This document shows positions 3,180-63,585 of a stretch of 64,000 bases of DNA, piece after piece; the first letter of the stretch is position 1, and each line of letters starts with the position of its first letter. The stretch is from Lucinisca nassula (taxonomy: Eukaryota > Mollusca > Bivalvia > Lucinida > Lucinidae). The position numbers and the translations under genes are program-made. The stretch spans positions 122,299,223-122,363,222 of the forward strand of contig OY757025.1 in assembly GCA_963580285.1 (NCBI GenBank), read 5' to 3'. Below the pieces are notes generated by a model. It had not been told where the DNA came from and searched no databases. It saw only the letters and a program-made list of their open reading frames with translations.

Positions 3180-3625
3180 AAATCAGTAATTTATTTTATC
3201 CCTTTTCCTCAACTCGTTTAATAAATTCAATAATACATGAGCACTCATGTAAGATCCTCTATTATTAAACTGGTTGAGGAAAAGGGATAAAATGCTCGGC
3301 ACACCCTCACATTTTATCCCTTTTCCTGATCTCGTTTAATAAATTCAATAATACATGAGCACTCATGTAAGATCCTCTATTATTAAACTGGTTGAGGTAA
3401 AGGGATAAAATGCTCGGCACAGCCTCGCATTTTATCCCTTTTCCTGAACTCGTTTAATAAATTCAATAATACATGAGCACTCATGTAAGATCCTCTATTA
3501 TTAAACTTGTTGAGGAGAAGGGATAAAATGCTTGGCAAAGCCTCGCATTTTATCCCTTTTCCTCAACTCGTTTAATAAATTCAATAATACATGAGCACTC
3601 ATGTAAGATCCTCTATATATGGATG
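3180..3625. repeat. 118-bp tandem array of palindromic units
   Basis: ATTTTATCCCTTTTCC starts at 3193, 3311, 3429 and 3547, exactly 118 bp apart. Within each unit the first half (CCTCAACTCGTTTAATA) pairs with the second half (TATTAAACTGGTTGAGG), so the array can fold as serial hairpins. A single inverted copy lies at 14946-15105. Confidence 0.9.
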
Positions 3626-43962: not shown

Positions 43963-46900
43963 GGAACAGATAAGCAGGGTATTTGCGTAAATTTAAAGAA
44001 TACCCAATTGAAAATTAAATTAAAGGGTAACAAAACCCAGATGAAAATCAAAGATACCCAAATCTAACTGACATACTTGCATATAATTCTTAAAGATTTG
44101 ATACTTTCAGTTACCTTTATGTATAATAACCTGCACACAGTTGTCATTTATTTTGCTTTTTTAGATGCTTGCTTTTAGTGATGTACATGAGGGGCGTGAT
44201 AGCTCAGTGGTTAGTGCACTTGCCTCTGATGCTAGAGGTCCCGGGTTCGATCCCCAGCAGCGGCGATAAAATTTCGGTGCCTGAACACGCTCCATTGGCA
44301 TCATTTGCAGGGATGAATGTCATAAAGTGCACCGTCCTTCGGATCGGGACATTAACTGGAGGCCCCCTGTGCAGGGAGAACCATCCCCTGTGCAGGTTAA
44401 AGATCCCTGCCGTAATTACATGATTACTGTGTAGGCTTTCATCCTGCAAAACCTGGGGTGTATGTAATATACACCTGCGGTAATGGTCAAATGTGACCGA
44501 CGCAGTATCAGAAGATAGATAGATATGTACACAACAGTTTACTGTAAAACACTTACATTTGCCGGCCATTTTATTTTGGCGCTATTGGAAGCCAAGGTAA
44601 AAATGCCAATAAACATAAAAAAGAATACCAAATTGACAGAAATTTATTTCCAATACACATCACAAGTATGATATAGGGAGATACGTTTTATCAAGTCTTT
44701 CTCTTTGCTTAACTTGTTAATTACCTGGTATTAAGCCATTTAGCATGCTCAACAAAGCTGAATAAAAGCAAAAACTATGTCAAAAATCGTATAATTGATA
44801 TCGATTGATGGCTTTGCCTGCGAATAAACTGACAAATCAAAGAACAATAGAACTGATTTGTTTTTGCACACACAAAGAACAATGCAATGTGGAAATTGGA
44901 AAACAGTTGAAAATCACTGTATATGACTTTCAAATCGCCATTTTAAACTCGTTCCGGTATGCATAAGACAGATAGGGGTACGTAAGAAATCACGGATTTT
45001 TTTTTTAATTTTTGAAAATCGAAAATCCGCCAAAAGGTCCACTCCTGAAAACCGCCAAAATTTGCTGTTGCCAAATTTTAGTGTCTTACAGTAAGCAAAA
45101 AACATTGGAGAGATGCATTTAGGCCTCTGTCAAGTTATATATATGGTTTTGTTTGTCTGATTTGAGGTTTAACGTCCCAGTCAACACTGTAAAGGTCATT
45201 TTAGAGACATTGCTTCCAATTTTGTGGGATCTTTACCTGACATTGAGATGAAATGACATCTCAAGCCCTGTCGCCCAATGAAACCAATAGGGTTTATTAG
45301 CATGGACGGTCCTCCTCACACCACAGTTCCTGGACAGGCTTAGATCCTCTAAGCAGTTTACCAGTACTAGTGTGCAGGCCGGAACAGATAAGCTTTTGTA
45401 TGGAATTGGGTATACTCACTATATTCAACTTTAATTGGGTATCTGAAGAGATGACTGGGTATCAGCTCATATTTTGTTTAATTGGATAGCTGATTATTTA
45501 AGCTAGTACCATACAACTTGATGGCCCCCGCCCACAGGGGCTTGAAGAAATATATGGGCTGCAAGATGCTTCCACGCAGAGCTGAATCCGACCCGCACAC
45601 TGTGTTCTGTATAGTGTCAAATGAGATTTTTGAATATTATCCGTGAAATTAAACCAAAACTAATGTTTAACATTTTGGGTTTTTGAAGTTTTAAACATTA
45701 TGGAACCAGTCTCTCCTGACATTTATTTGCTTATTTTGTTGCCTAAAAGGCATTTTAAAACTACCTACCATCATGACAAAATGTAGTCGATGTGCCTTAT
45801 TAACAAACAGAAATAAGATTAAAGCAGGTATATTTTTTGTCTAAATTTATTCGAAGAAAGAAGTAGTTGAATGTACAAAATGACTTGTGGCAAACACTTT
45901 TAAAAGGATGACGGTTTAACAATACATGTAGTAATTGCAGAAAATAATTAATGCTTTTGTTTGATTTGAGGTTTAACGCCCCAGTCAACACTGTATAGGT
46001 CATTTTGGAGATGTTGCTTCCAATTTTGTGGGACTTTTACCCGACACTGAGATGAAATGACACCTCAAGCCCTGCTGCCCAATGAAACCAATAGGGTTTA
46101 TACAATGGTAGAGTATGGAATCGTAAGTTATTTTGCTCACCAGAGAAAATGAGGCTAAGGACCTATTACCTTGTGTCACGTAGTCCAAAGATGTGTCCAC
46201 TCTCATACAGTCGTTTTTCGTGGGCGGACTATTTTATTATTTACTATAGTAAGATACCTTTGTGTTACCTTTGTTTGTTTTGGAGTTCAATGGTCAACAC
46301 TATTTAAGTTAATTTTTGTACCGGTCACATTTAAGGCTGCCAAGATTAATGGTATAATCGATTAATCGATCGATAAATTCCACAAAAATGATTATCATTT
46401 CTGATTTGCTTTTAATCAATTACTTGATAGGTACAATTTACTACCCAAAGTTACATGTATGCCTAAAATAGCTGGATGAGGGACAAACAGTGCAGACCCT
46501 GATGAGATGCCGCATTATGCAGCGTCTCATCTGGGTCTACACTGTTTGCTCAGGCCTGTCTGTTCAAATATACATATGGTAAGACAAGTAAAGCATAGCA
46601 TAGATAAGAAAGCAAGACAAGTAAAATTATAACAACAACCTTAGCGATTACTAATCGATTATCGATTGTAATGACAGGACTGATAATCAATTATCTTTTC
46701 AGCTCCGATTAGCCAGCCCTAGTCACGTTACCTATCCACACTTTTCCTGGACAGGCTTGTACATAAGCAGTTAACAAGTACAGTGCACATTCTTTCACCA
46801 GAAACTAACAACTGCCCTTCTTGAATAAGCAGAAGGGAGAGAATGACCGCAGAAAAGATTTCATGATCAATCTCCATGAAAGAATGCTGCTGACCCCGGC

Positions 46901-49900
46901 AGGTGTCGAATGAGTGTCCTACTGATCACCAGCCAGGCGCGCATCTGACTCAGCTACAGAGGCCAGCCATGCATGTTACATTTATGTCATCAGGAAAACA
47001 CTGTCTTCCTCGTGTAAACAGTAACGGTAAAGTAACAAATGGGTGCCCAAAATCCTTTGATCTCCTGACTGTTTTGTGTCGGTGTTGTGTCATAAATAAA
47101 TTATACAGTCATTTTTTTTATTGCAATAAGTGCCAATTAGGATTACAAAAGATTATGAACCTTACAGGTATAACTCAGGGTTCCACATTAACTTTTTAAA
47201 TAACTGGACAAGGTGGTCCTGTAACTTTTGGGATGCATTGGACCTGATCTTAGTTCAACTGCCATCAAAAGAAATGATGAAGATACATAAGTTCTAGTCA
47301 TCAGACTGTTTCCACACAGTAAAATGAAAACAAAAATTTTATGGAATTTGAGTTAAAAACATGGACACCGAAATAATCACCGCCTCTGGGGGATCGAACC
47401 GGGGGCCTCTAGCATCAAAGGCACGTGCACTGGTTCCGGGACGTTTCGCCCCAAACCATTTCCTCCCCTAGTCCTTTCGCTCTTCAAGACGTTTCCTTCC
47501 TGGTCGTTTACCCATAGTCGTTTCGCCCACTTTTCAATGTAAGACCAATTTTCACTGTTGAACTTTTATTAGAGGTGAGAAGAGGCAAATATTTAAGTAG
47601 CATCATCGCCTAAGTATCCGTATTTGTTCTTTAAGAGACGTCATTCATACATGTAGTTTAACATTATGTCTCTGGTGGCGGGTGAAAAAGATCAAGGGGG
47701 AAATATAGGAAAGAAAGAGAAATAGTGGACATAAAAGAAAGATTCCAGCCTGCTTTTTCAAATCATCATTGGAAACCAGACCTCTCTGGCTACAGTAGCT
47801 GCAACTGGATATGGTCGCCCAACCGACACAGGTTAAACTAGAAATGCGTCCATGGGACACGGATGCCCCCGCCTGAAAATATGTCTTTGTTCGTATTCAT
47901 CCATAGAAAGTCATTGACCGTGTTTAAGTTTTGGACCCTTTTTTCACATTTGACCTCTAAGTATGACCTTGACCTTGTAGGTAAGGACCTTGGTTTTGTG
48001 TGAAGCAGATTGTCTCATGATGGCCAACATTTCTGCCAAGTAATTTCAAAATCCATCCAGAGATAAGAAAGTTTAAGTTTCGGACCATTTTTTTTTACCT
48101 TTGACCTCTAAGGGTTCCGGGTCATTTCGGCCCATAACAAAATCGGCCCATAGCAATTTCGACCCATAAATGATTAAAAGGCTGTTATAGGGGTAAATTA
48201 TCAGCCAAAATTAAAAAAAAGTGAAAGATATAGTTAATTTATGATAAAATACATGCATGTACAATTTATTTTTACTCCTTTTCACCGCTCGGCATCTGTA
48301 TCATTATCTTAAATAAATACCTCCCTCAGATGTGAGTTTTCTTGCAATGCAACCTTTGTAATGGAAGATAAGAAATAAAAATAATATAATGTTTATTTAG
48401 CAAAAAAATGTATATTTATGAACTTGAAAATACTAGTTCTAGGGTCATTGCTTATAAATATATATATTGTTGGCACATGTCGTTATGCAAAATGATTAAT
48501 AATCATTTCAGGTTGTTGCTTTTATCGACACGTGCCTTAAAGCAACAAATGGAACGATTATCTCTTTACTCAAACCTCAGTCATTAATGGGGCACGTGCC
48601 AATCATCCATAAGTCTATGTCTCCTAATGTGTGTCTTTAATTCTTTCTTTGTTTCTTTTCTGTTTCGTTTTATGAATGTTATTGGACAGGGGCGCATCAA
48701 CAGCTATATGTGGGCCTTGCGCCGGGGCCCAACGAAAGACTCACATCAGCCTGTGCATCCGGGCAGTCTGATTTGTGTGTAACTATGAATCATAAAGTAG
48801 CCAAAGCTACCTCATGCCTCCAGTGATCATGACCATACTGTGTGGCTGAGCAAGTCGAGCTGTGTATGCTGGGCTTGTGGAGTAGCCAAGGCTTCCTCAC
48901 GCCTCCAGTGATCATGACCATACTGTGTGGCTGAGCAAGTCGAGCTGTGTATGCTGGGCTTGTGGAGTAGCCAAGGCTTCCTCATGCCTCCAGCGATCAT
49001 GACCATACTGTGCGGCTGAGCAAGTCAAGCTGTGTATGCTGGGCTTGTGGAGTAGCCAAAGCTTCCTCATGCCTCCAGCGATCATGACCATACTGTGCGG
49101 CTGAGCAAGTCAAGCTGTGTATGCTGGGCTTGTGGAGTAGCCAAGGCTTCCTCACGCCTCCAGTGATCATGACCATACTGTGTGACTGAGCAAGTCGAGC
49201 TGTATATGCTGAGCTTGTGGAGTAGCCAAGGCTTCCTCATGCCTCCAGTGATCATGACCATACTGTGTGGCTGAGCAAGTCAAGCTGTGTATGCTGGGCT
49301 TGTGGAGTAGCCAAGGCTTCCTCATGCCTCCAGTGATCATGACCATACTGTGTGGCTGAGCAAGTCAAGCTGTGTATGCTGGGCTTGTGGAGTAGCCAAG
49401 GCTTCCTCATGCCTCCAGTGATCATGACTATACTGTGTGACTGAGCAAGTCAAGCTGTGTATGCTGGGCTTGTGGAGTAGCCAAGGCTTCATCACGTCTC
49501 CAGCGATCATAGCCATACTGTGTGGCTGAGCAAGTAGAGCTGTGTATGCTGGGCTCGTGGAGTAGCCAAGGCTTCCTCATGCCTCCAGTGATCATGACCA
49601 TACTGTGTGGCTGAGCAAGTCAAGCTGTGTATACTGAGCTCGTGGAGTAGCCAAAGCTTCCTCATGCCTCCAGTGATCATGACCATACTGTGTGGCTGAG
49701 CAAGTCGAGCTGTGTATGCTGGGCTTGTGGAGTAGCCAAGGCTTCCTCATGCCTCCAGCGATCATGACCATACTGTGCGGCTGAGCAAGTAGAGCTGTGT
49801 ATGCTGGGCTCGTGAAGTAGCCAAAGCTTCCTCACGCCTCCAGTGATCATGACCATACTGTGTGGCTGAGCAAGTAGAGCTGTGTATGCTGGGCTTGTGG

Positions 49901-52900
49901 AGTAGCCAAGGCTTCCTCACGCCTCCAGTGATCATGACCATACTGTGTGGCTGAGCAAGTCGAGCTGTGTATGCTGGGCTTGTGGAGTAGCCAAAGCTTC
50001 CTCACTCCTCCAGTGATCATGACCATACTGTGTGGCTGAGCAAGTCGAGCTGTGTATGCTGGGCTTGTGGAGTAGCCAAAGCTACCTCATGCCTCCAGCG
50101 ATCATGACCATACTGTGAGGCTGAACAAGTCGAGCTGTGTATGCTGGGCTTGTGGAGTAGCCAAAGCTTCCTCACTCCTCCAGTGATCATGACCATACTG
50201 TGTGGCTGAGCAAGTCGAGCTGTGTATGCTGGGCTTGTGGAGTAGCCAAAGCTACCTCATGCCTCCAGCGATCATGACCATACTGTGTGGCTGAGCAAGT
50301 CGAGCTGTGTATGCTGGGCTTGTGGAGTAGCCAAAGCTTCCTCATGCCTCCAGCGATCATGACCATACTGTGTGGCTGAGCAAGTAAAGCTGTGTATGCT
50401 GGGCTTGTGGAGTAGCCAAGGCTTCCTCACGCCTCCAGTGATCATGACCATACTGTGCGGCTGAGCAAGTCGAGCTGTGTATGCTGGGCTTGTGGAGTAG
50501 CCAAAGCTTCCTCACGCCTCCAGTGATCATGACCATACTGTGTGGCTGAGCAAGTCGAGCTGTGTATGCTGGGCTCGTGGAGTAGCCAAGGCTACCTCAT
50601 GCCTCCAGTGATCATGACCATACTGTGTGGCTGAGCAAGTCGAGCTGTGTATGCTGGGCTCGTGGAGTAGCCAAAGCTTCCTCATGCCTCCAGCGATCAT
50701 GACCATACTGTGTGGCTGAGCAAGTCGGGCTGTGTATGCTGGGCTTGTGGAGTAGCCAAGGCTTCCTCACGCCTCCAGCGATCATGACCATACTGTGCGG
50801 CTGAGCAAGTCGAGCTGTGTATGCTGGGCTCGTGAAGTAGCCAAAGCTTCATCACGTCTCCAGCGATCATAGCCATACTGTGCGGCTGAGCAAGTCGAGC
50901 TGTGTATGCTGGGCTTGTGGAGTAGCCAAGGCTTCCTCACGCCTCCAGTGATCATGACCATACTGTGTGGCTGAGCAAGTCGAGCTGTGTATGCTGGGCT
51001 TGTGGAGTAGCCAAAGCTACCTCATGCCTCCAGTGATCATGACCATACTGTGTGGCTGAGCAAGTCGGGCTGTGTATGCTGGGCTTGTGGAGTAGCCAAG
51101 GCTTCCTCACGCCTCCAGTGATCATGACCATACTGTGTGGCTGAGCAAGTCGAGCTGTGTATGCTGGGCTTGTGGAGTAGCCAAAGCTACCTCATGCCTC
51201 CAGTGATCATGACCATACTGTGTGGCTGAGCAAGTCGAGCTGTGTATGCTGGGCTCGTGGAGTAGCCAAGGCTTCCTCACCCCTCCAGCGATCATGACCA
51301 TACTATGCGGCTGAGCAAGTCGAGCTGTGTATGCTGGGCTTGTGGAGTAGCCAAGGCTTCCTCATGCCTCCAGCGATCATGACCATACTGTGCGGCTGAG
51401 CAAGTCGAGCTGTGTATGCTGGGCTTGTGGAGTAGCCAAGGCTTCCTCACTCCTCCAGCGATCATGACCATACTGTGTGGCTGAGCAAGTCGAGCTGTGT
51501 ATGCTGGGCTCGTGGAGTAGCCAAGGCTTCCTCATGCCTCCAGCGATCATGACCATACTGTGTGGCTGAGCAAGTCAAGCTGTGTATGCTGGGCTTGTGG
51601 AGTAGCCAAGGCTTCCTCACGCCTCCAGTGATCATGACCATACTGTGCGGCTGAGCAAGTAGAGCTGTGTATGCTGGGCTCGTGAAGTAGCCAAGGCTTC
51701 ATCACGTCTCCAGCGATCATAGCCATACTGTGCGGCTGAGCAAGTCGAGCTGTGTATGCTGGGCTTGTGGAGTAGCCAAGGCTTCCTCACTCCTCCAGTG
51801 ATCATGACCATACTGTGCGGCTGAGCAAGTCGAGCTGTGTATGCTGGGCTTGTGGAGTAGCCAAAGCTTCCTCACCCCTCCAGCGATCATGACCATACTG
51901 TGTGGCTGAGCAAGTAGAGCTGTGTATGCTGGGCTTGTGGAGTAGCCAAGGCTTCATCACGTCTCCAGCGATCATAGCCATACTGTGCGGCTGAGCAAGT
52001 AGAGCTGTGTATGCTGGGCTCGTGAAGTAGCCAAGGCTTCATCACGTCTCCAGCGATCATGACCATACTGTGCGGCTGAGCAAGTCAAGCTGTGTATGCT
52101 GGGCTTGTGGAGTAGCCAAGGCTTCCTCACCCCTCCAGCGATCATGACCATACTGTGTGGCTGAGCAAGTCAAGCTGTGTATGCTGGGCTTGTGGAGTAG
52201 CCAAGGCTTCCTCACCCCTCCAGCGATCATGACCATACTGTGTGGCTGAGCAAGTCGAGCTGTGTATGCTGGGCTTGTGGAGTAGCCAAGGCTTCATCAC
52301 GTCTCCAACGATCATGACCATACTGTGCGGCTGAGCAAGTCGAGCTGTGTATGCTGGGCTTGTGGAGTAGCCAAAGCTTCCTCACGCCTCCAGCGATCAT
52401 AGCCATACTGTGCGGCTGAGCAAGTCGAGCTGTGTATGCTGGGCTTGTGGAGTAGCCAAGGCTTCATCACGTCTCCAGCGATCATAGCCATACTGTGAGG
52501 CTGAGCAAGTTGAGCTGTGTATGCTGGGCTTGTGGAGTAGCCAAGGCTTCATCACGTCTCCAGCGATCATAGCCATACTGTGTGGCTGAGCAAGTCGAGC
52601 TGTGTATGCTGGGCTTGTCGAGTAGCCAAGGCTTCCTCACCCCTCCAGCGATCATGACCATACTGTGTGGCTGAGCAAGTCGAGCTGTGTATGCTGGGCT
52701 TGTGGAGTAGCCAAGGCTTCATCACGTCTCCAACGATCATGACCATACTGTGCGGCTGAGCAAGTCGAGCTGTGTATGCTGGGCTTGTGGAGTAGCCAAA
52801 GCTTCCTCACGCCTCCAGCGATCATAGCCATACTGTGCGGCTGAGCAAGTTGAGCTGTGTATGCTGGGCTTGTGGAGTAGCCAAGGCTTCCTCACGCCTC

Positions 52901-55900
52901 CAGCGATCATGGCCATACTGTGCGGCTGAGCAAGTCAAGCTGTGTATGCTGGGCTTGTGGAGTAGCCAAGGCTTCCTCACACCTCCAGTGATCATGACCA
53001 TACTGTGTGGCTGAGCAAGTCGAGCTGTGTATGCTGGGCTCGTGGAGTAGCCAAGGCTTCCTCACTCCTCCAGCGATCATGACCATACTGTGTGGCTGAG
53101 CAAGTCGAGCTGTGTATGCTGGGCTTGTGGAGTAGCCAAGGCTTCATCACGTCTCCAGCGATCATAGCCATACTGTGCGGCTGAGCAAGTCGAGCTGTGT
53201 ATGCTGGGCTTGTGGAGTAGCCAAGGCTTCCTCACTCCTCCAGCGATCATGACCATACTGTGCGGCTGAGCAAGTCGAGCTGTGTATGCTGGGCTCGTGG
53301 AGTAGCCAAGGCTTCCTCACTCCTCCAGCGATCATGACCATACTGTGTGGCTGAGCAAGTCGAGCTGTGTATGCTGGGCTTGTGGAGTAGCCAAGGCTTC
53401 CTCACTCCTCCAGCGATCATGACCATACTGTGGGGCTGAGCAAGTCGAGCTGTGTATGCTGGGCTTGTGGAGTAGCCAAGGCTTCCTCACTCCTCCAGCG
53501 ATCATGACCATACTGTGAGGCTGAGCAAGTCGAGCTGTGTATGCTGGGCTTGTGGAGTAGCCAAGGCTTCCTCACGCCTCCAGTGATCATGACCATACTG
53601 TGTGGCTGAGCAAGTAGAGCTGTGTATGCTGGGCTTGTGAAGTAGCCAAGGCTTCCTCATGCCTCCAGTGATCATAGCCATACTGTGCGGCTGAGCAAGT
53701 CGAGCTGTGTATGCTGGGCTCGTGGAGTAGCCAAAGCTTCCTCACGCCTCCAGCGATCATGACCATGACCTGAATGCCAGGGTGCTTAAAGAATGTGGTG
53801 CTGAAATTTCACCTGTGCTGGCCTTTATCTTCAATGAATCACTCGCCCAGGGCACTGTACCAGATGACTGGCGACAAGCTAATGTTACCCCGGTCTATAA
53901 AAAAGGAGAAAAATATGATGCAGCAAATTATAGACCAGTGTCGCTAACATGCATCTGTTGCAAAACCCTGGAGCATATAATAGTTAGTAACATCAATAAG
54001 CACCTAGCCTTAGAGAGCATTCTTGCTGACTGTCAACATGGTTTCCGAAGTCAAAGGTCTTGCGAAACTCAATTAGTTCAGTTTTACCATGACATTGTGA
54101 GCAATCTGGATGGGGCCACAAACCGTGGCCACAAACAGACTGACTTGATTATCATGGACTTCGCTAAGGCCTTTGACAAGGTACCTCACAGGAGGCTATT
54201 GTATAAATTGGATTCCTATGGGATAAGAGGATCCACACACAGGTGGATTAGCTCATGGCTCTCAGGGCGCTCACAACAAGTTGTACTTGATGGCCAAGCG
54301 TCTGATCCAGTCCCTGTTTTATCTGGTGTCCCCCAAGGTTCGGTCCTTGGACCGGTCCTTTTCTTGGTATTCATTAATGATCTCCCTGATAACATCAGGT
54401 CATCTGTCCGTTTGTTTGCTGATGATTGTGTCCTTTATAGGAATATATATTCTTCTTCTGACTGTCTTATTCTACAAGATGACCTGAATCAACTAGCACA
54501 GTGGGAGGCCGATTGGCAGATGAAGTTCAATGTGGCCAAATGTCATTCAATGAGGGTGTCGCGACACCCTCCTGACAAACAAATTAAGTTTGACTATAAA
54601 CTACACCAGCAAATCTTGGAGCAGGTTCAATCCGCCAAATATCTTGGTATCACCATCACTGATGATCTTGATTGGGGTCAACACGTTTCAGAAATTACAT
54701 CAAAAGCAACTAGGACTTTAGGATTTCTTAGACGAAACTTGGCTTTTGCACCTAGGCAGACAAAGGATGTTGCATATAAAACATTGGTTCGCCCTCAGCT
54801 AGAATATGCATCACCCATTTGGCATCCCTATGTTAAAACTCAGATTCAGCAGGTGGAGAAGGTGCAGAGGACAGCTGCTCGATGGACCTGCCGACGATGG
54901 CGCAATAGAAGCAGCGTCGGTGACATGCTTAACGAGCTAGAATGGCCGTCCCTAGAGGCCCGTCGTGAGCAGTCCTCTTTAACCTTCTTCTATAAGATAC
55001 ATTCAGGTACAGTGGCCGTTAATAAAGATAAATACTTGACCCCTGTGACAGTTTCAACTCGAACAAGGGCATCAAAAGTAAATAACTCACAGTATCACAG
55101 GTACCAGTCCTACAGTGATGCCCTGAAAAATTCCTTCTTCCCTAGGACTATTCCCCAGTGGAATAGTCTTCCCTCTTCTGTGGTGAATGCTAAGACTGCA
55201 GAGGAGTTCAAAGCCCATACAGTGTAAGATTGAGACTCAGAGGTATGCGTTTTAGTATACCTCTGTTATTCAGATTGTAAATAGTTTTAAGGACCCATCC
55301 AGTGACTTCTCTTTTTTTTTTTTTTTTTTTTTTTTTCAGCTAAATTCTAAATTTAGCTACGCACCCAACTGAGGTAATGGCCAAATATGACCGACTCAGT
55401 ATAAGAAGATAGAGATAGATACTGTGTGGCTGAGCAAGTTGAGCTGTGTATGCTGGGCTCGTGGAGTAGCCAAGGCTTCCTCACGCCTCCAGTGATCATG
55501 ACCATACTGTGCGGCTGAGCAAGTCGAGCTGTGTATGCTGGGCTCGTGAAGTAGCCAAGGCTTCATCATGCCTCCAGTGATCATAGCCATACTGTGCGGC
55601 TGAGCAAGTCGAGCTGTGTATGCTGGGCTCGTGGAGTAGCAAAGGCTTCCTCATGCCTCCAGTGATCATGACCATACTGTGCGGCTGAGCAAGTCAAGCT
55701 GTGTATGCTGGGCTTGTGGAGTAGCCAAGGCTTCCTCACTCCTCCAGCGATCATAGCCATACTGTGCGGCTGAGCAAGTCGAGCTGTGTATGCTGGGCTC
55801 GTGAAGTAGCCAAGGCTTCCTCACGCCTCCAGCGATCATGACCATACTGTGAGGCTGAGCAAGTCAAGCTGTGTATGCTGGGCTCGTGGAGTAGCCAAGG

Positions 55901-58900
55901 CTTCCTCATGCCTCCAGCGATCATGACTATACTGTGTGGCTGAGCAAGTCGAGCTGTGTATGCTGGGCTCGTGGAGTAGCCAAGGCTTCCTCTCGCCTCC
56001 AGCGATCATGACCATACTGTGCGGCTGAGCAAGTCGAGCTGTGTATGCTGGGCTCGTGGAGTAGCCAAGGCTTCCTCTCGCCTCCAGCGATCATGACCAT
56101 ACTGTGCGGCTGAGCAAGTCGAGCTGTGTATGCTGGGCTCGTGGAGTAGCCAAAGCTTCCTCACGCCTCCAGCGATCATGACCATACTGTGTGGCTGAGC
56201 AAGTCGAGCTGTGTATGCTGGGCTTGTGGAGTAGCCAAGGCTTCCTCACGCCTCCAGTGATCATGACCATACTGTGCGGCTGAGCAAGTCGAGCTGTGTA
56301 TGCTGGGCTTGTGGAGTAGCCAAGGCTTCCTCACTCCTCCAGTGATCATAGCCATACTGTGTGGCTGAGCAAGTCGAGCTGTGTATGCTGGGCTTGTGGA
56401 GTAGCCAAGGCTTCCTCACGCCTCCAGCGATCATGACCATACTGTGTGGCTGAGCAAGTCGAGCTGTGTATGCTGGGCTCGTGGAGTAGCCAAGGCTTCC
56501 TCATGCCTCCAGCGATCATGACTATACTGTGTGGCTGAGCAAGTCAAGCTGTGTATGCTGGGCTTGTGGAGTAGCCAAGGCTTCATCACGTCTCCAGCGA
56601 TCATAGCCATACTGTGTGGCTGAGCAAGTCGAGCTGTGTATGCTGGGCTTGTGGAGTAGCCAAGGCTTCCTCACGCCTCCAGTGATCATGACCATACTGT
56701 GTGGCTGAGCAAGTCGAGCTGTGTATGCTGGGCTTGTGGAGTAGCCAAGGCTTCCTCACGCCTCCAGTGATCATGACCATACTGTGTGGCTGAGCAAGTC
56801 GAGCTGTGTATGCTGGGCTTGTGGAGTAGCCAAGGCTTCCTCATGCCTCCAGTGATCATGACCATACTGTGAGGCTGAGCCAGTCAAGTTGTGTATGCTG
56901 GGCTTGTGAAGTAGCCAAGGCTTCCTCACGCCTCCAGCGATCATGACCATACTGTGTGGCTGAGCAAGTCGAGCTGTGTATGCTGGGCTTGTGGAGTAGC
57001 CAAGGCTTCCTCATGCCTCCAGTGATCATGACCATACTGTGCGGCTGAGCAAGTCGAGCTGTGTATGCTGGGCTTGTGGAGTAGCCAAGGCTTCCTCACT
57101 CCTCCAGTGATCATGACCATACTGTGTGGCTGAGCAAGTCGAGCTGTGTATGCTGGGCTTGTGAAGTAGCCAAGGCTTCCTCACCCCTCCAGCGATCATG
57201 ACCATACTGTGTGGCTGAGCAAGTCGAGCTGTGTATGCTGGGCTTGTGAAGTAGCCAAGGCTTCCTCATGCCTCCAGAGATCATGACCATACTGTGTGGC
57301 TGAGCAAGTCGAGCTGTGTATGCTGGGCTCGTGGAGTAGCCAAGGCTTCATCACGTCTCCAGCGATCATGACCATACTGTGTGGCTGAGCAAGTCAAGCT
57401 GTGTATGCTGGGCTCGTGGAGTAGCCAAGGCTTCCTCATGCCTCCAGCGATCATGACCATACTGTGTGGCTGAGCAAGTCAAGCTGTGTATGCAGGGCTT
57501 GTGGAGTAGCCAAGGCTTCCTCACCCCTCCAGTGATCATGACCATACTGTGTGGCTGAGCAAGTTGAGCTGTGTATGCTGGGCTTGTGGAGTAGCCAAGG
57601 CTTCATCACGTCTCCAGCGATCATGACCATACTGTGTGGCTGAGCAAGTCAAGCTGTGTATGCTGGGCTCGTGGAGTAGCCAAGGCTTCCTCTCGCCTCC
57701 AGCGATCATGGCCATACTGTGCGGCTGAGCCAGTCGAGTTGTGTATGCTGGGCTTGTGGAGTAGCCAAGGCTTCCTCACGCCTCCAGTGATCATGACCAT
57801 ACTGTGTGGCTGAGCAAGTCGAGCTGTGTATGCTGGGCTTGTGGAGTAGCCAAGGCTTCATCACTCCTCCAGTGATCATAGCCATACTGTGTGGCTGAGC
57901 AAGTCGAGCTGTGTATGCTGGGCTCGTGGAGTAGCCAAGGCTTCCTCACGCCTCCAGCGATCATGACCATACTGTGTGGCTGAGCAAGTCGAGCTGTGTA
58001 TGCTGGGCTCGTGGAGTAGCCAAGGCTTCATCACTCCTCCAGTGATCATGACCATACTGTGTGGCTGAGCAAGTCGAGCTGTGTATGCTGAGCTTGTGGA
58101 GTAGCCAAGGCTTCCTCATGCCTCCAGCGATCATGACCATTCTGTGCGGCTGAGCAAGTCAAGCTGTGTATGCTGGGCTTGTGAAGTAGCCAAGGCTTCA
58201 TCATGCCTCCAGCGATCATGACCATACTGTGCGGCTGAGCAAGTCAAGCTGTGTATGCTGGGCTTGTGGAGTAGCCAAGGCTTCCTCATGCCTCCAGTGA
58301 TCATGACCATACTGTGTGGCTGAGCAAGTCGAGCTGTGTATGCTGGGCTTGTGGAGTAGCCAAAGCTTCCTCATGCCTCCAGTGATCATGACCATACTGT
58401 GTGGCTGAGCAAGTCGAGCTGTGTATGCTGGGCTTGTGGAGTAGCCAAGGCTTCCTCACGTCTCCAGCGATCATGACCATACCGTGCGGCTGAGCAAGTC
58501 GAGCTGTGTATGCTGGGCTTGTGGAGTAGCCAAAGCTTCCTCACGCCTCCAGCGTAGAAATTGCTGGGCCCTTACTTACTCATTTACTTTGTGTTTGAAT
58601 CGGCCTAATGTTCAAACCCAGCAAATGTTAATGCACGAAAACCTATGCGTGATTCCTGTAATAAAATTGAAGATTTTCTGCTGAAAACTAATCAATGCGC
58701 CTCTTATTCATAGCGTAGGACATTACGTAAATCTAAGTGTTGAAAAGCAGAGATAAGAAATACAATGTTCAATGGAACCCTTAACAATTTCATAAGCCCA
58801 ATGTGACTGTGAACAGCGTTTGATGTCAGACTGCAGTGAAAACAATCAAATATCAAATAGCTTTAAACATTTTCAGAAAATTCTTAAGAGTGCATTTTCT

Positions 58901-61900
58901 ATCTATCAGATAGCCGATACTCCATAACCTCCGAGGATGACTTTCGGAAGGGGTTCCAGTATACCAAGTACTGAAGGGGGTTAGTTGAAACAAAAGATAA
59001 GTATAGCAGGTGAAATGAGTTTGTACAGTGCTAGGCGAGTGTTAGTACAGTTAAAAGTAAAAAAAAACCAGAGGCCAGTGACTTGGGGGACACATGCCAC
59101 ACCCGGCACACAGCATCACTAAACTGTGCCATGGTTGGGAGCAAGACCATTTAGCGGGGTAGAGCATTCCAACGCGGGCCAATCAATACCAGTATTGATG
59201 GGTCCGAGATTCCAATGAAAATTTGTAGTAGTTTGTAGGGGTAGTGATGAGTCTGTATGCCAAAGGGTGGTTTTGACTAGAGTCCCTCCTGATATGTGGA
59301 TATGTGGTTCTTTCTTATATACCCATTACGAAAACACACCTGTGTGACATAGTGCATTCTTTCATTATCTCCAAAATGACTACTTTTCCTACACAAAAGA
59401 GATATTCGTTTTATTTATACTCCGAGCATGCGGTGGCGGTTCTATCGAGTTCCCACAACATATGTCTTGGATCAGAAATAAGCACAATAACATATACCCC
59501 TTAAAACCCCATTTCTCTATATAAAGTGGGGTTAAGGGCGGTATTATTTTCTCGGACTTGTTAACACGTTGTGATTTTTTATCATCAGAGGAAAGTATAT
59601 AAATTTCTCAAACTGAACATATTTTTTTCTTTTTATCCAGTTTTCGACTTACATGCTACTGATTTAATTGGCCGTGCAAGCAAATCAATTATATGCAAAC
59701 ATAATAATTATACCATCATTAAAATTGTGGATCGAAATTGCTATGGGCCGAAATGTCCAGGGACCCCTCTAAGTATGACCTTGACCTTGGAGGTATGGAT
59801 CTGGGTTTGCACGTGACACATCGTCTCATGATGGTCAATATTTCTTCAAAGTAATTTTAAAATCCATCCAGAAATAAATAAGTTATTGACTGCGTTTAAG
59901 TTTCAGACCCTTTTTTGACCTTTGACCTCTAAGTATGACCTTGACCTTGGAGGTACGGACCTGGGTTTTGCACATGACACATCATCTCATGATGGTTAAC
60001 ATTTCTACAAAGTAATTTCAAAATCCATCCAGAAATAAGAAAGTTATTAACTGCGTTTAAGTTTCGGACCCTTTTTTGACCTCTAAGTATGACCTTGACC
60101 TTGAAGGTACGGACCTGGGTTTTACATGTGACATGTCGTCTCATGATGGTTACCATTTTTGCCAAGTAATTTTAAAATCCATCAAGAAATAAGGAAGTTA
60201 TTGGCTGTGTTTAAGTCTCAGACGCACAATCGGACAGACAGGGGCAACGCTATATGCGCTTTCCACCATTCTTCGAATGGCTGGGGCATTAAAATCCCTC
60301 AGATGTTACTAACAGACCGGCCCCTACCTAGCTGTTAAAAAGAGAGATTCGGAGAGAGTGGACGGTCCCTGCTTGAATGATACCAAGTCGGGGGCCTCAG
60401 CAATAGATGTTGGTAAAGAATTCCAAACGGGCAAAGTCCTAGGGAAGAAGCTGTACTCGAATGCATCAAGCAAACCAAGTTGTCTGATCAGGGTCTGCAC
60501 TAGTTGCTTACAAGTTACAGTTCAGAAATTACTGGGCCGGACACCGCAAATCTGCTCAAGGTATACACAGATTGCTGACAGAACATTGATGAAAGGGGTC
60601 GACTTTATTATGTTGCATCGGCGTTGACGCGTCGTTGCGTAGACGACATTTGGGGCAATACTTAACCATGTATAACCTAGTGGGCACACAATGTGTATGC
60701 AACGTCGTATCAACGCTAATGCAACTGTATTACGTTGCATCAGCGTTGATGTGACGTTGCCTAGACGGCATTTGCAATGTATTACTGGCTGACTCTGTAA
60801 ACAAACCAACCGACCAATTTAAAACAAAACTGGTAAAGGTGCTTTGGTGTTTAACTTTGCAAAGAGTGCATGTTTTCACACTCATCATTAATGGCATTAA
60901 TTTCGTGATTAATGAGTCAAATCAAATAAACAATGTGATTAACGGTATTGATCAAAGCAGGTAATACTTATCATAATTCCCAATTAATATTTTCATCAGA
61001 TTAAAGCAAATTTTATTACATATACCTTTTCAATGATATACAGGTTATTGACCACAAAAATGGAGCAGTTTGAGAAAAATAGGATTAAGACCAGTGACCC
61101 TTGAAATATGTGGAAATTCCAGTTGATAATAGACAGGTACAGGAGCTTTTTTTCTTGACATACTTCCGGTTCTAAAAATAGAACGGGAAAAGCCCTGGCC
61201 GTCAGCTGTCGTATTGCTTCAAAGCAGTAGGACAGATAAAGTGTTAATTACAGTGTAAAACAGTGGAATTCTTTTAAACTTTTGGCGAATTCTAATGTAA
61301 GACAATAGGAGAAACACTGATATGCTTCCAGGTGTGAAATTTCGCATTACGAAATCATGCCTATACAAATACATTATCAATTTTTCGGCCAAACATGGAA
61401 ATTTTAAGATGAAAAATTGTGATATTTTTTTCTTATTTCTGCTCAAAACATAGATTGAGGGAACTCGATAGAACAGGCTGGACGAAATAAGAAAAATAAT
61501 GGTTACCCCTGTAAACCCCAGTTTTACTATAAAAAAACTGGGGTTTGAGGGGTTAAAAATCGCGGCAAATCCCAAGTGTTATTCTTTTGACTATTCTTTT
61601 AGTTAGCTGCTGCTCTTAAAGATATATTGCATGTACGACCCAACAGTGTCCTCTCTCTCTCTGATTGTGCCATGGTCTACATGTTGCTCTCTCTCTCAGT
61701 GAACCAGCAATTATCGAGCGTAGGTAAATGTAAATTACAGTTTATCGTTAAATAACTCCACGTCAACCGACATGTAACGTGTCAACAACGCTGTGTCTAC
61801 ATCAAACCAACATCAAAGCGATACACTGAATCTGACTTTGCAACATCGATGAAACGTCAGAACGTTGCGTTGGCGATAATACGGCGTTGCTTAATAAGTA

Positions 61901-63585
61901 TCAGTTGCCCAGTGCTTGCACCCATCAAGACTGAGTGGGATAATTGGAACATTAAATTCAAAACAAACGTAGAACACCCTTTCAGTGCATGAGAATGAAA
62001 CACTCATTCGCAAGTTCAAGATTTTACAGTAAAATCTGGTAGATTTGTAGAACCTGCCCAGCCCTTACATGAACCCAATATTGTTAAATGGCAAACAGTG
62101 CAGGCCCAGATCAGACACCGCAGAATGTGGCCTCTGATCAGGACCTACACTGTTTGCAAAAAGTTCAGCCATTTTACAAATAAAATTGAAGAAAATACAA
62201 CCTGACATCCCTAAATTTTGAAATGGACTCCTGCTATATATAAAAGGAGGAAGATTCCGTCTGGTACAAAAAGGGTCAATGGCTTATTAGCTTAGTTCTA
62301 CAATATCTTCTTGGATACAGGGATCAGTCAAACCACTCTCATCTCAACGGTAACGTGACATTGAAGTTAACTGAAGCGGGTGTCAACGGCATGATGTCGA
62401 GCCATGTTCACTTGACGCCCGTCTGTCAGTATGTTTATTTGTCTGTCTAACTGTCCGTTCGTTCGTCTCTTAGTCAGTCATTCGTCGTCAGTTTGTCAGT
62501 CAAACCTCTCCCTCTCATCTCAACGGTCATGTGACATTGAAGTCAGTTAGAGTGGGTGTCGACGGATAGATAGATAGAAAGTTACGTAAAAACTTATTTT
62601 GTAAATAAGCTTTCGTGAATAACGGTATCTCAGGTCATATTGACAAGGGTCATTCATGAAGAGATTTTTGTTAATTAAAAACAGATCCAGGAAAAATGAA
62701 CTTCAGTAATAAAAGCAAAATATCATTCTTTCCTTTTCGAGGCATTATTTCAATGTAAATGGGTATATTTTCTTTCAAAATGTCTGAATATTGTTAGCAG
62801 TTTAAGTTCCGCCAACGCATTTGAATAGCGATGGCCGTTTCAATTGACGGCCAGTGGTTTGCACATGCGCAAGAATGACGTCATAAACGGAATTCCTAAA
62901 ACCTCCTAGGTATTGGGGTTGCTAATATTTAGGTCAATTTTCACTGAAAAAATAAAATACCCCTTTTTGAAAATCAAAAACCCCTTATTTGGGTCCAAGA
63001 AAATATCACACGTATGATAATCTAAATGGAGCGTGATAGCTCAGTGGTTAGTGCACTTGCCTCTGATGCTAGAGGTCCCGGGTTCGATCCCCGGCAGCGG
63101 GGATAAAATTTCGTCTTCCAAACACGCTCTATTGGCATCATTTGCAGGGATGAATGTCATAAAGTGCTCCGTCCTTCGGATCGGGACGTTAACTGGAGGC
63201 CCCCTGTGCAGGGAGAACCATCCCCTGTGCAGGTTAAAGATCCCTACCGTAATTACATGATTACTGTGTAGGCTTTCATCCTGCAAAACCTGGAGTGTAT
63301 GTAATATACACCTGCAGTAATGGTCAAATGTGACCGACGCAGTATCAGAAAAAAGATAGATAGATGCATCAAATACGTATTAAACACGTTTCTTTTCGCT
63401 TGTCGAATTTTAGTAACATTCGAACAAATAGACTTTGTCTGTAGTGATTTTGTTAGAAATTATTAAGGAATTAAACTATAAAACGGGATAATTTATTCTT
63501 CCAAAGCTTTGTCAATTTAACACTTATACCTACCAGAATTTTCGTCCACGATCACTCCCTCACGATCAATAGGGGCAGATGCCAT
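36078..63585 (-). CDS. PYM1: PYM homologue (partner of Y14 and Mago), three coding exons
   Basis: Joining 63585-63534, 41723-41627 and 36579-36078 gives 651 bp, 216 residues plus stop; human PYM1 is 204. PYM (WIBG) binds the Mago-Y14 core of the exon junction complex, strips it from translated mRNA, and contacts the small ribosomal subunit. The Mago-binding segment spans residues 18-53 and is strongly conserved: [19 protein letters not shown], then [16 protein letters not shown]. Next come [11 protein letters not shown], a basic stretch ([17 protein letters not shown]), a variable Ser/Gln-rich linker, and a C-terminal coiled coil ([20 protein letters not shown]) with the closing acidic [12 protein letters not shown]. 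The start ATG has an in-frame TAA 12 bases upstream. Both introns are GT/AG; intron 1 is phase 1 and intron 2 phase 2. Intron 1 is 21,810 bp, intron 2 is 5,047 bp. Confidence 0.96.
36829..37114. mobile_element. Foldback MITE, family G, well preserved
   Basis: Ends CATAATGCAAACACGCCTAT and, on the other strand, CATCACGAAAACACGCCTAT. The centre has GTTAGAACTGCCTCAGCAAG / GCGGTTCTAGCGAG. It sits within 'cctgctgttcat|caacccctacc', which elsewhere (25.1-25.4 kb, reverse) is continuous, so the insertion site is evident. Confidence 0.85.
37130..37192. repeat. Short palindrome, family H
   Basis: 'agcagtgtagatgaccagatg' and 'catctgattgggatctacactgttt' pair around CTCCTTCAGAAG. It belongs to the 74-bp repeat text of 25 kb. 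Confidence 0.65.
37242..37570 (+). mobile_element. tRNA-derived SINE, family A, full-length with 14-bp target duplication
   Basis: Box A GATAGCTCAGTTGGTAGAG and box B GGGGTTCGACCCC are both intact. The tail is CACACACAC. Flanks ATGTCATCAAGTGA at 37228-37241 and 37571-37584 are identical. It is the best candidate for a young copy. Confidence 0.93.
37840..38125 (+). repeat. Family D dispersed repeat
   Basis: Starts TTTGTTTGATTTGAGGTTTA, ends near 'aagccccgatgggcagcgg'. Lies in PYM intron 2. Confidence 0.8.
38300..38446. repeat. Hairpin family I, left half, interrupted
   Basis: The left arm CTTAAAGGAAAGGAAAGAAT up to 'tgctcctgag' is separated from the right arm (40315-40340, 'attctttcctttaagaatag') by a SINE and a capped element (38448-40293). 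Those two inserted in the loop. Confidence 0.7.
38448..38760 (+). mobile_element. tRNA-derived SINE, family B
   Basis: Head GTGATAGCTCAGTGGTTAGT (box A) and GGGTTCAATCCC (box B). The body runs to 'taatggtcagatgtgaccgata', where the terminal part is cut by the next element. Other copies 44190-44527 and 63026-63365. Confidence 0.85.
38761..40293. mobile_element. Hairpin-capped element with ~165-bp array
   Basis: It opens with a GAGGGCCCAGAGGGCCCT palindrome and 'gctcacctg'. About eight units carry 'aacaatcttggtagaggtccactagatgaagcttc' and 'gacctgggccttg'. It closes with 'cgcacgacggac' and the cap at 40259-40290 (AGCTCACCTCGTCAC/GTGACATGTGAGCT). Confidence 0.75.
40590..40680. repeat. Family G fragment
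   Basis: 'aaactggtgtttacaggagtatacattatttt' and 'ggttctaatgagtacccacaatccat' without the other arm. Confidence 0.45.
40745..41045 (-). repeat. Family D dispersed repeat, - orientation
   Basis: Reverse complement of the standard copy, from 'cccgcccataggggcttg' to 'aaacctcaaatcaaacaaac'. Complete-looking copy, about 300 bp. Confidence 0.8.
41125..41420 (-). mobile_element. tRNA-derived SINE, family F, full-length
   Basis: On the - strand: GTCTTGGTAGCTCAGTAGGA (box A), CGCGGGTTCGATACC (box B), then the body 'tgatcatgaaatcttttata', 'tgtcagtttctggcaaaag', 'tgtactggttatccgcttac' and the end 'gccattaaatgccaattc' with an A-rich tail. Confidence 0.8.
41627..41723 (-). CDS. PYM1: PYM exon 2 (Mago-binding segment)
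   Basis: 97 bp with a pyrimidine-rich acceptor (TTTATTTCTCAG, ending at 41724) and donor GTGAGT at 41626-41621. It begins GT (completing Gly with exon 1) and ends GT (first two bases of Val). It encodes [20 protein letters not shown] and [11 protein letters not shown], the hallmark of the PYM family. Too short to stand out as an ORF. Confidence 0.97.
42030..42100 (-). repeat. Family D terminal fragment
   Basis: 'gaagcaacgtctccaaaatgacctttacagtgttgacgggg' to 'ctcaaatcaaacaaac'. Flanked by TGTCTGATTGACAA at about 42012 and 42101, a 12-14 bp direct repeat that looks like a target duplication. Confidence 0.7.
42190..43911. mobile_element. Hairpin-capped element with ~468-bp tandem units
   Basis: Three and a half units of about 468 bp ('gccaagtttcaaggccattgg' near 42222, 42692, 43158, 43626), each with 'ggccatcttggtcatgtgatctagacc' and 'tgaccttgacctttct'. 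It ends in 'gacggacgacggacggatgg' and the cap 43878-43911. Confidence 0.8.
43912..43963. repeat. A-rich and CA microsatellite
   Basis: AAACAAACAAAC, an A run, then (AC)n directly after the cap hairpin. Confidence 0.8.
44190..44527 (+). mobile_element. tRNA-derived SINE, family B, full-length
   Basis: Head with GTGATAGCTCAGTGGTTAGT and CGGGTTCGATCCCC. It ends in 'gtgaccgacgcagtatcagaagatagatagata', matching the end of the LINE at 55380-55420. A 6-bp ATGTAC occurs on both sides, a weak target duplication. Confidence 0.88.
44528..45140. other. No recognisable feature
   Basis: AT-rich intron sequence. A few 'acaaatc' texts, no exon or repeat family seen. Confidence 0.4.
45145..45400 (+). repeat. 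Family D dispersed repeat
   Basis: From TTTGTCTGATTTGAGGTTTA to 'ctagtgtgcaggccggaac'. The missing end of D appears inverted at 45520-45600 ('ccgcccacaggggcttgaagaaatatatgggctgc'), which suggests a broken or rearranged pair. Confidence 0.7.
45955..46112 (+). repeat. Family D fragment
   Basis: Starts TTTTGTTTGATTTGAGGTTT, stops after 'ccaatagggtttata'. Confidence 0.75.
46487..46552. repeat. Short palindrome, family H
   Basis: ACAAACAGTGCAGACCCTGA / TGGGTCTACACTGTTTGCT with inner stem GATGAGATGCCGC...GCAGCGTCTCATC (one mismatch). Confidence 0.8.
46735..46975 (-). mobile_element. SINE family F copy
   Basis: The head (on - strand GCCTCTGTAGCTGAGTCAGA) is at 46950-46970, the body reaches 'ttttcctggacaggcttgtacataag' at 46741. 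The tail is missing. Confidence 0.65.
47388..47431 (-). mobile_element. SINE family B head fragment
   Basis: On the - strand it reads CAGTGCACGTGCCTTTGATG and CCCCGGTTCGATCCCC, the tRNA-like head of family B. It abuts a transposon-like terminus at 47432. Confidence 0.6.
47432..47530 (+). repeat. Terminus-like sequence with ~16-bp subrepeats
   Basis: GGTTCCGGGACGTTTCGCCC resembles the left end of the 11.65-kb element (GGTTCCGGGTCATTTCGGCC). It continues as irregular 'gtcgtttcgccca' units. No matching right end was found. Confidence 0.5.
48796..53766 (+). repeat. 85-bp satellite array, left block (about 58 units)
   Basis: Unit start 'actgtg' recurs every 85 bp (48837, 48922, ...). The unit contains TGAGCAAGTCGAGCTGTGTA, 'tgctgggcttgtggagtagc' and 'gatcatgaccat'. 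Units are nearly all full length, with point variants at fixed positions. 85 is not a multiple of 3 and stops are frequent, so it is not coding. Confidence 0.97.
53767..55227 (+). CDS. LINE reverse transcriptase, partial ORF2 (Jockey/CR1-like)
   Basis: The frame is open from the truncation point ([11 protein letters not shown]) to TAA 55225-55227, about 486 codons, with no internal stop. RT blocks in order: [75 protein letters not shown], the catalytic [10 protein letters not shown] (Asp-Asp pair intact), then [12 protein letters not shown]. The C-terminal part includes [13 protein letters not shown] and IPQWNSLP. In such elements this enzyme copies its own RNA into DNA at a nick. The true start, an apurinic-type endonuclease domain and any promoter are lost, so the copy cannot be autonomous. 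The intact frame suggests a fairly recent insertion. Clade placement is by resemblance only. Confidence 0.92.
   Translation, partial: DLNARVLKECGAEISPVLAFIFNESLAQGTVPDDWRQANVTPVYKKGEKYDAANYRPVSLTCICCKTLEHIIVSNINKHLALESILADCQHGFRSQRSCETQLVQFYHDIVSNLDGATNRGHKQTDLIIMDFAKAFDKVPHRRLLYKLDSYGIRGSTHRWISSWLSGRSQQVVLDGQASDPVPVLSGVPQGSVLGPVLFLVFINDLPDNIRSSVRLFADDCVLYRNIYSSSDCLILQDDLNQLAQWEADWQMKFNVAKCHSMRVSRHPPDKQIKFDYKLHQQILEQVQSAKYLGITITDDLDWGQHVSEITSKATRTLGFLRRNLAFAPRQTKDVAYKTLVRPQLEYASPIWHPYVKTQIQQVEKVQRTAARWTCRRWRNRSSVGDMLNELEWPSLEARREQSSLTFFYKIHSGTVAVNKDKYLTPVTVSTRTRASKVNNSQYHRYQSYSDALKNSFFPRTIPQWNSLPSSVVNAKTAEEFKAHTV
53767..55420 (+). mobile_element. 5'-truncated non-LTR retrotransposon (LINE) inside the satellite
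   Basis: It interrupts the 85-bp unit exactly between GACCAT and ACTGTG, with no base lost or gained and no clear target duplication. It carries the reverse-transcriptase part of ORF2, a 3' UTR with a T run at about 55312-55336, and ends in 'agaagatagagatagat'. The endonuclease and the upstream ORF are missing. Confidence 0.93.
55421..58554 (+). repeat. 85-bp satellite array, right block (about 37 units)
   Basis: It resumes in phase at ACTGTGTGGC right after the LINE and ends mid-unit at 'gcctccagcg' 58554. The same unit variants as in the left block occur. Confidence 0.97.
59327..59580. mobile_element. Foldback MITE, family G, inside the right arm of the big insertion
   Basis: Left CATTACGAAAACACACCTGT, right 'tctcggacttgttaacacgttgtga'. 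The central hairpin retains only 'ggcggttctatcgagt'. The 'cccttaaaaccccatttctctatataaagtggggttaaggg' hairpin is present. Confidence 0.65.
60600..60800. repeat. Two copies of an ACGTTGCATCAGCGTTGA motif block
   Basis: 'atgttgcatcggcgttgacgcgtcgttgcgtagacgacattt' at about 60610 recurs at about 60733. Related GTTGC-rich text is at 61755-61900. It may be the ends of a decayed element; no boundary fixed. Confidence 0.5.
61346..61563. mobile_element. Foldback MITE, family G, right end lost
   Basis: CATTACGAAATCATGCCTAT left end, 'cttatttctgctcaaaacatag', a decayed centre, and 'ccccagttttactata...actggggtttgagggg'. Confidence 0.65.
62091..62282 (+). repeat. Extended family H element
   Basis: Hairpin 62091-62160 (GGCAAACAGTGCAGGCCCAG arm) plus 'cctgacatccctaaattttgaaatggactcctgc' text, matching 27103-27315 in reverse. 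Confidence 0.8.
62325..62570 (+). repeat. Short direct duplication separated by a GTC-rich tract
   Basis: 'tcatctcaacggt.a.gtgacattgaagt.a.t' occurs at 62339 and 62515. Between them lie many GTCTGTC, GTTCGTTCGTC and CAGTCA words. Confidence 0.7.
63026..63365 (+). mobile_element. tRNA-derived SINE, family B, full-length
   Basis: Head GCGTGATAGCTCAGTGGTTA and CCCGGGTTCGATCCCC. Ends 'gaccgacgcagtatcagaaaaaagatagatagat'. It lies 170 bp inside PYM intron 1, close to exon 1. Confidence 0.88.
63534..63585 (-). CDS. PYM1: PYM exon 1 (start)
   Basis: ATG at 63585-63583 opens [17 protein letters not shown] plus one base, then donor GTAGGT from 63533. An in-frame TAA lies 12 bases before the ATG. Splicing to exon 2 joins ...[11 protein letters not shown]. 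Exon 1 is poorly conserved in the family, so this assignment rests on the matching splice phase and position. Confidence 0.85.

Follow-up and report, generated by a model that had tools for sequence, protein, structure and literature searches.

An 85-bp satellite inside a Merlin-like non-autonomous transposon of the bivalve Lucinisca nassula, and its apparent growth from about one to 95 units

A 64,000-nucleotide stretch of the genome of the lucinid bivalve Lucinisca nassula (assembly GCA_963580285.1, contig OY757025.1, positions 122,299,223 to 122,363,222, forward strand; hereafter the window) contains an 11.65-kb insertion, most of which consists of a tandem satellite with a unit of 85 bp. 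The explanation that best accounts for this structure, and in which we have good confidence, is that a Merlin-like element holding one unit and 30 bp of a second was inserted at this site, and that its array was grown by exchange to 95 units. This confidence is not higher because the exchange of blocks of units does not reproduce the low linkage seen between variable sites in the array. The evidence comes from the anatomy of the insertion, from the other copies of the family in the same genome, and from the pattern of variation among the satellite units.

The ends of the insertion pair as inverted repeats: GGTTCCGGGTCATTTCGGCCCATA at 48113 and GGTCCCTGGACATTTCGGCCCATA, the right end up to 59765 read in reverse complement, agree in 21 of 24 positions. 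Local inverted alignment of the two 700-bp ends gave as its best result a subterminal match of 27 bp with a score of 44, against a top score of 35 in 500 mononucleotide shuffles of the same ends. An identical 8-bp target-site duplication (TSD), CCTCTAAG, lies immediately outside each of these terminal inverted repeats (TIRs). Among the 278,963 pairs of identical 8-mers found 200-30,000 bp apart in the window, only five bound inverted matches of at least 21/24; one is the pair belonging to the element, and in the other four the partners are dispersed tandem repeats (2495/2826 and 29375/29537). When the element is excised in silico, the joined flanks align without a break to uninterrupted units of the ~160-bp tandem repeat that hosts it. 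Inverted-repeat ends, a short duplication on both sides and the restoration of a continuous host unit had each been proposed in the original prediction, made from the letters of the window, and all three are borne out. The host repeat is found at 31953-33236, 47952-48112 and 59766-60223, and is presumably of the kind found in bivalve Helentron or pearl-type elements.

The genome assembly (2,926 Mb in 696 contigs) was searched for further copies. A query with the left end gave 1,225 candidates, and all of the 40 that were scored, the window copy included, match it. Twenty of the 39 other matches were fetched for the study of their anatomy. The right end was detected in 12 of these 20, at an end-to-end distance of 1.4-3.7 kb, and both edges of the array could be located in 12, ten of which have two units, one approximately one and one three; the two sets of twelve are not identical. 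TSDs were assessed at 18 loci, including six later ones, with the ends re-read in a longer context. Two loci were dropped, one having no left end (L042) and the other a misplaced left end from which no TSD could be called (L047). The TSD is exact in 15 of the remaining 16 copies, being 8 bp long in 11 and 9 bp in four, and matches at 7/8 positions in the sixteenth (L056). The duplicated sequences all differ from one another, and two copies joined by zero-length branches in a tree of left flanks (L022 and L027) have different TSDs, which implies that the family has moved recently.

Hence TIRs with a target duplication of fixed length recur at different genomic sites, and the element is a non-autonomous TIR DNA transposon. 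An 85-bp tandem unit lies between its flanks in several copies, in numbers ranging from 1 to 95, such that the satellite is borne by the transposable element. The original prediction of a transposon-like insertion is therefore supported, and withstands the refutation it set for itself, as other copies have both ends at variable distance; the genome search it proposed, for paired ends and for the unit between them, found one to three units at the same internal place in 12 of the 20 fetched copies. In one further case, on the contig designated C3 (approximately 45,637,188 to 45,647,590, the places being set by hand), the left flank breaks off at position 143 in L020, and L043 continues it from position 142; these appear to be one copy of the family split by an insertion of about 10.4 kb.

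Judged by its ends and by the length of its TSDs, a character not exclusive to Merlin because Mutator elements may have similar TSD lengths, the superfamily of the element is most likely Merlin; membership is not claimed, because six Merlin transposase loci gave no match to the ends of the element. Helitrons and Helentrons (HINE) are defined by absent target-site duplication and TIRs, and Helentrons are without TSD or TIR transposase; the element, having both TSDs and TIRs, is not of this kind. Merlin elements, according to the accessible portion of one description (PMC8101967), have 5'-GG termini, TSDs of 8 or 9 bp and TIRs that are at times very imperfect, and Merlin copies of a Symbiodinium contain, according to the same portion, 3-4 tandem units of 163 bp. 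The element resembles them in its imperfect TIRs, in the 5'-GG found at both ends of the window copy and of 15 of the 16 placed copies (the right end of L025 is AG), and in its TSDs, the 8 bp of the window copy and the lengths found at the 16 other loci agreeing with those of Merlin. It differs from them in lacking a transposase, and no autonomous partner with its ends was identified at the six loci. A DDE_Tnp_IS1595 (PF12762) transposase was not detected in the window copy, and in the 683 and 1,211 bp outside the array the longest listed stop-free stretch is 75 amino acids (aa); when the ten longest of the 22 listed stretches were scanned against Pfam, four gave noise below the cut-off and six gave nothing. 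Merlin-type transposases are plentiful in the genome, with 150 of 304 candidates scored, on many contigs, many with open frames and with identical scores. Two of the six Merlin loci inspected (L050 and L052) resolved to other TIRs, GGAACACATTTACTTTACCGG and GGGTAGAATTTACTTTACCGG, with 8-bp TSDs.

The state from which the window array grew can be approached through the smaller copies. Where a copy has two units, as in L014 and L022, they are not alike: the first has A at position 14, T at position 20, and CGAGCT then GTGT in its 3' half, while the end unit has T at 14, C at 20, CTGGT and later GTCT, followed by GAAT-TG ahead of the right flank. In the window copy the end unit stops at 30 bp and abuts the right flank directly. 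A search with the right flank, in which 40 of 606 candidates were scored, yielded four copies at 95% identity, with others lower. All four of these siblings have the same truncation point as the window copy and hold 115 bp between their flanks, that is, one unit and 30 bp. One of them (L055) has one base different just before the truncation point, and in another (L054) the two 30-bp arms are identical at 28 of 30 bases. The siblings differ by 0.24-1.44% among themselves and by 5.1-5.7% from the window copy, whose flanks are diverged from theirs at 57 of 1,218 columns.

Comparison of these sequences indicates an increase of the satellite from about one unit to 95 within the lineage of the window copy. 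Growth probably came after insertion; it is put no more strongly because no short allele was seen at the site and 40 of 674 unit candidates were scored. The original prediction had left two possibilities, that the array travelled with the element or that it expanded after insertion. Expansion in the lineage of the copy is favoured by the 115 bp held by all four siblings with the same truncation, and no transposed long array was found among the 40 candidates scored.

These 40 candidates came from a query with two units, and comprise, by our count, the window array and 38 other places. A single match of about two units is present at 27 of the 38, and more at 11. Eight of the longer-looking loci were fetched, and contain 15, 11, 5, 4, 14 (in two blocks), 3, 3 and 3 units. 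In all eight the right flank lies no more than 24 bp from the last unit, and in six some left flank is also present. The internal units of the window array combine marks of the two unit types. T at position 14, as in the end unit, is found in 89 of 95 units and GTGTAT of the first unit is kept in 94 of 95; the A that unit 1 has at position 14 persists in six units, all among units 1-29. In L021 and L047, each with three units, a hybrid stands between the first and the last unit, its 5' marks being those of the end unit and its 3' half that of the first. L045 agrees with this order, and L042, L043 and L046 do not decide. On these marks, most internal units of the window array appear to be hybrids between the end unit and the first, the expected outcome of unequal exchange.

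The most economical series of steps that would link these observations can be proposed as follows. A non-autonomous TIR transposon, Merlin-like in its 5'-GG ends and 8-9-bp TSDs, would have been inserted in one of the units of an older tandem-repeat array. In its progenitor the seed would have been one 85-bp unit together with the initial 30 bp of another, two direct repeats that remained once the second unit usual in the family had been truncated. Misaligned unequal exchange, or slippage, through the 30-bp arms would give rise to hybrid units, and further exchange, which we infer to have involved many units at a time or to have been accompanied by gene conversion, would have brought the array to 95 units in steps of exactly 85 bp, mixing it on the way, with both outer junctions remaining fixed during growth. 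The long interspersed nuclear element (LINE) fragment now in unit 59 would have landed there.

The array totals 95 units and 30 bp, or 8,105 bp with the LINE excluded, in keeping with the roughly 95 units and approximately 8.1 kb of the original prediction. The LINE that splits it was absent from that prediction and is added here: the interior fragment of about 1.65 kb encodes reverse transcriptase (PF00078, E 3.9e-37) in a frame open for 486 codons. The 94 uninterrupted units are spaced at exact 85-bp steps without phase slips and comprise 77 distinct sequences, with a mean pairwise identity of 93.9%; 54 of the 85 positions are invariant, and 12 of the 37 variants are singletons. Most of the variation is held by 14 sites, for which all four allele combinations are present in 75 of 91 site pairs (mean r2 0.054). 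Units at the edges diverge no more than the average unit, and neighbouring units are nearly as different as distant ones (adjacent/overall ratio 0.93, near/far 0.94), the effect of distance being weak (p 0.013, 300 permutations). No clear higher-order period was found in the array up to a lag of 39. Tajima's D, -0.87 over all sites, is +0.32 at CpG and -1.48 at non-CpG sites, values that make a past expansion possible.

Array growth was simulated with 24 runs per setting for turnover and 60 runs for bursts, under models that ignore CpG hypermutability. Slippage of single units gave an adjacent/overall ratio of 0.11, against the 0.93 observed, and was rejected as the sole process. Blocks of about three units, at 0.58, failed as well. 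Blocks of about 8-15 units gave 0.97-1.05 and so agree with the spatial pattern; they also match the number of singletons, with means of 12.4 and 10.8 against 12 observed. Strong conversion matches the linkage (r2 0.02-0.03, four-gamete fraction 0.76-0.82). No single model among those simulated fits every statistic of the array. A fresh burst in small steps from one unit was likewise rejected, as it gave means of 26-56 singletons against 12. Burst runs with no more than 15 singletons made up 0, 0, 8 and 27% of the 60 for blocks of 1, 3, 8 and 20 units, and the last two figures imply that bursts in large blocks are possible.

Several results weigh against growth by exchange from a seed at this site. 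A transposase with the ends of the element was not found at the six Merlin loci inspected. The hybrid order is clear in L021 and L047 only, out of six copies that have 3-5 units. As a marker, position 14 is imperfect: the first unit has A there in 14 and T in 8 of 22 loci, and two of the siblings have C. The inner units of the older arrays L040, L041 and L044 mostly have 3' halves of the end type. Block exchange gives r2 of 0.11-0.14 and a four-gamete fraction of 0.50-0.51, against 0.054 and 0.82 observed, and strong conversion gives too few singletons (5.8-7.6) and lower adjacent ratios. Runs falling within both spatial bounds numbered 4/24 for blocks of 8, 5/24 for blocks of 15 and 3/24 for the strongest conversion; matches between blocks within the array itself are weak, being reached by 20/300 and 42/300 permutations. 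Furthermore, a further long array with the window junction may exist, given the 40 of 674 candidates scored, and, as no pre-expansion allele of the window site was seen and the siblings are as far diverged as they are, growth could have begun before insertion.

The last point corresponds to the strongest alternative, that the array had already become large in a progenitor and was carried to this site, still long, when the element transposed, which seems unlikely, if deserving of some weight. The 5% divergence of the window copy from its siblings leaves room for an unseen intermediate, and the small number of singletons, relative to that in simulated bursts, is not like a fresh burst in small steps. 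Nevertheless, no scored copy has a long array with the window junction and the four siblings hold one unit and 30 bp, while the divergence of their flanks from those of the window copy allows turnover in place; the large-block bursts compatible with few singletons (blocks of about 20 and about 8) and the negative Tajima's D at non-CpG sites also count against it. It is very improbable that the array length is an assembly artefact, the true array being much shorter or longer: tandem arrays are prone to mis-assembly, but this general proneness is countered by the 77 distinct sequences among 94 units, the absence of phase slips and the single LINE marker, features that speak against plain collapse or duplication, and by the intermediate lengths at other loci. 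Least credible of all is that an outside satellite was captured by the transposon, or that the ends flank an old array by chance, since, even though mobile elements capture satellites in other systems (in what is accessible of PMC12628747) and the array is as well mixed as if sampled from a pool, other copies carry the 85-bp unit at the corresponding internal position, bounded by the same flanks, and 20 of the 38 non-window places adjoin family flanks. A classical satellite, in comparison, is abundant as long arrays that are not part of mobile elements and are usually heterochromatic.

Other properties of the array and of its surroundings were also noted. Five sites per unit in the array (48796-58554) segregate CG versus TG or CA, and the observed/expected ratio of CpG is 0.36-0.38 in the array versus 0.65-0.81 in the flanks of the element; as a sign of methylation decay this is suggestive only, a single repeated unit being one sample. 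A rolling-circle origin from a multi-unit circle was set aside in view of the period analysis above. Unusual folding of two units was also set aside (z = -0.28). The absence of insertions and deletions is unremarkable given only 12 singletons, and length variants do occur in L040 and L041, which are older arrays. A coding function of the array and a relic of a transposase were likewise rejected: the LINE aside, the array holds no open reading frame of at least 130 aa, and the stop-free stretches outside it are short, as given above. The LINE fragment has its last ~55 bp, including a GATA-type tail, in common with two tRNA-like short interspersed nuclear element (SINE) copies at 63028-63362 and 44191-44525 that closely resemble each other, and from these shared letters the LINE and SINEs are likely to be a pair using one 3' end.

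A related end, GGTTCCGGGACGTTTCGCCCC, lies at 47432-47530, 680 bp upstream of the element, and has subterminal motifs that are similar by eye; no partner for it was found within the window at up to 5 errors. The stretch of the right flank at 59327-59566, present in many copies of the family, resembles about nine other places in the window, which implies that the family shares a module with another repeat. Elsewhere in the window, a 118-bp unit is tandemly repeated at 3193-3616 (3.6 copies, 96% matches) and by eye itself resembles an inverted-repeat element. For a 912-aa open frame without a Pfam family, at 4874-7612, the protein collection contains 28 relatives, the five best of them showing 77-82% identity over 91-100% of its length. 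Helix-turn-helix fragments of Tc/mariner-type transposases (PF01498; PF17906) are present at 18029-18757 and 20444-21043. The coordinates of the insertion and its parts are collected in Table 1.

Table 1. Parts of the insertion and of its host site, in window coordinates.
Feature	Position	Strand	Remark
Element insertion	48113..59765		TIR ends and 8-bp target duplication; interior array and LINE fragment
Host ~154-160-bp tandem repeat, left of insertion	47952..48112	+	
Left TSD CCTCTAAG	48105..48112	.	Copy of right TSD
Left TIR and ~16-bp subterminal repeats (CGGCCCATA motif)	48113..48159	+	Similar starts in other genome copies
Left flank of element, 683 bp, without detected coding sequence	48113..48795	+	Common to genome copies
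Satellite block 1: 58 full 85-bp units (48796-53725) and 41 bp of unit 59	48796..53766	+	
LINE fragment (RVT_1), 5'-truncated, inside unit 59; junction uncertain by ~2 bp	53767..55420	+	
Satellite block 2: 44 bp of unit 59 and 36 full units (55465-58524)	55421..58524	+	
Truncated end unit, 30 bp; junction of CCTCCAGCG with TAGAAATTGC	58525..58554	+	Truncation point common to 4 siblings
Right flank of element, 1,211 bp, without detected coding sequence	58555..59765	+	Common to genome copies
Right TIR	59722..59765	-	Inverted match to left end
Right TSD CCTCTAAG	59766..59773	.	Copy of left TSD
Host ~154-160-bp tandem repeat, right of insertion	59766..60223	+	

The original prediction goes too far in stating that satellites are seldom caught in mobile units, as tandem arrays in non-autonomous elements are described in the available portions of several papers. 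The miDNA4 element of Xenopus, a Tc1/mariner miniature inverted-repeat transposable element (MITE; Scalvenzi and Pollet 2014), drives a satellite DNA and holds a single monomer or a variable array, as far as the accessible text describes it (PMC12628747). It is likewise a non-autonomous inverted-repeat element for which growth of the array inside the element has been proposed. It belongs to another superfamily, and for its ancestral MITE the capture of a tandem repeat has been proposed; by contrast with that account, as far as it was available, sibling copies here display the seed state as well as the truncation point and units of the hybrid type, and the 95-unit copy has its ends and TSD intact. 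The available part of the description of Tetris, a foldback transposon of Drosophila virilis (PMC4079207), reports amplification of TIR-220 repeats, alleles with 3 and 4 repeats and arrays of up to 66 copies. Tetris resembles the present element in its short internal repeats, and has TSDs of 8-10 bp; its repeats lie within long TIRs, and its authors suggested Mutator, whereas the repeats here are central in an element with short TIRs.

Two comparisons can be made among bivalves. The non-autonomous Cg_HINE Helentrons of Crassostrea gigas carry satellite-like central arrays between fixed flanks, with monomers mostly of 140-180 bp and a longest array of 29.3 monomers, as against 95 here, in the sections of the source that were available (PMC7492417). 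The DTC84 MITE of Donax trunculus and the pearl family have short tandem cores of up to six monomers (PMC5139131, in part). These are also MITE-like bivalve elements with a tandem core; they differ in their pearl-type ends, and no large expansion of a single copy is described in the part of the source available. Among the matches listed in a search limited to open-access texts, no report of the element family was recognised, and those listed for the letters of the ends look irrelevant by title. Exact patterns had 0 matches in 2 scans of viral contigs, and a 19-mer had 3 bacterial matches among genome contigs, which by our estimate is about chance level.

It is conceivable, and we suggest it tentatively, that the family acts as a satellite nursery, in which independent copies repeatedly amplify the seed by exchange between first and last units; truncation to a 30-bp arm would have freed one lineage from a limit on length, so that it could reach 95 units with its ends, and perhaps its mobility, intact. 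Satellites born in transposons are already known, and a before-and-after pair as clear as this one seems uncommon. The origin of satellites is an old question that is usually argued from finished arrays. Here a single genome holds, between the same flanks, the start of one unit and 30 bp, intermediates of 3-15 units and the product of 95 units, so that the direction of change, the first hybrid unit and the timing relative to the flanks can be read.

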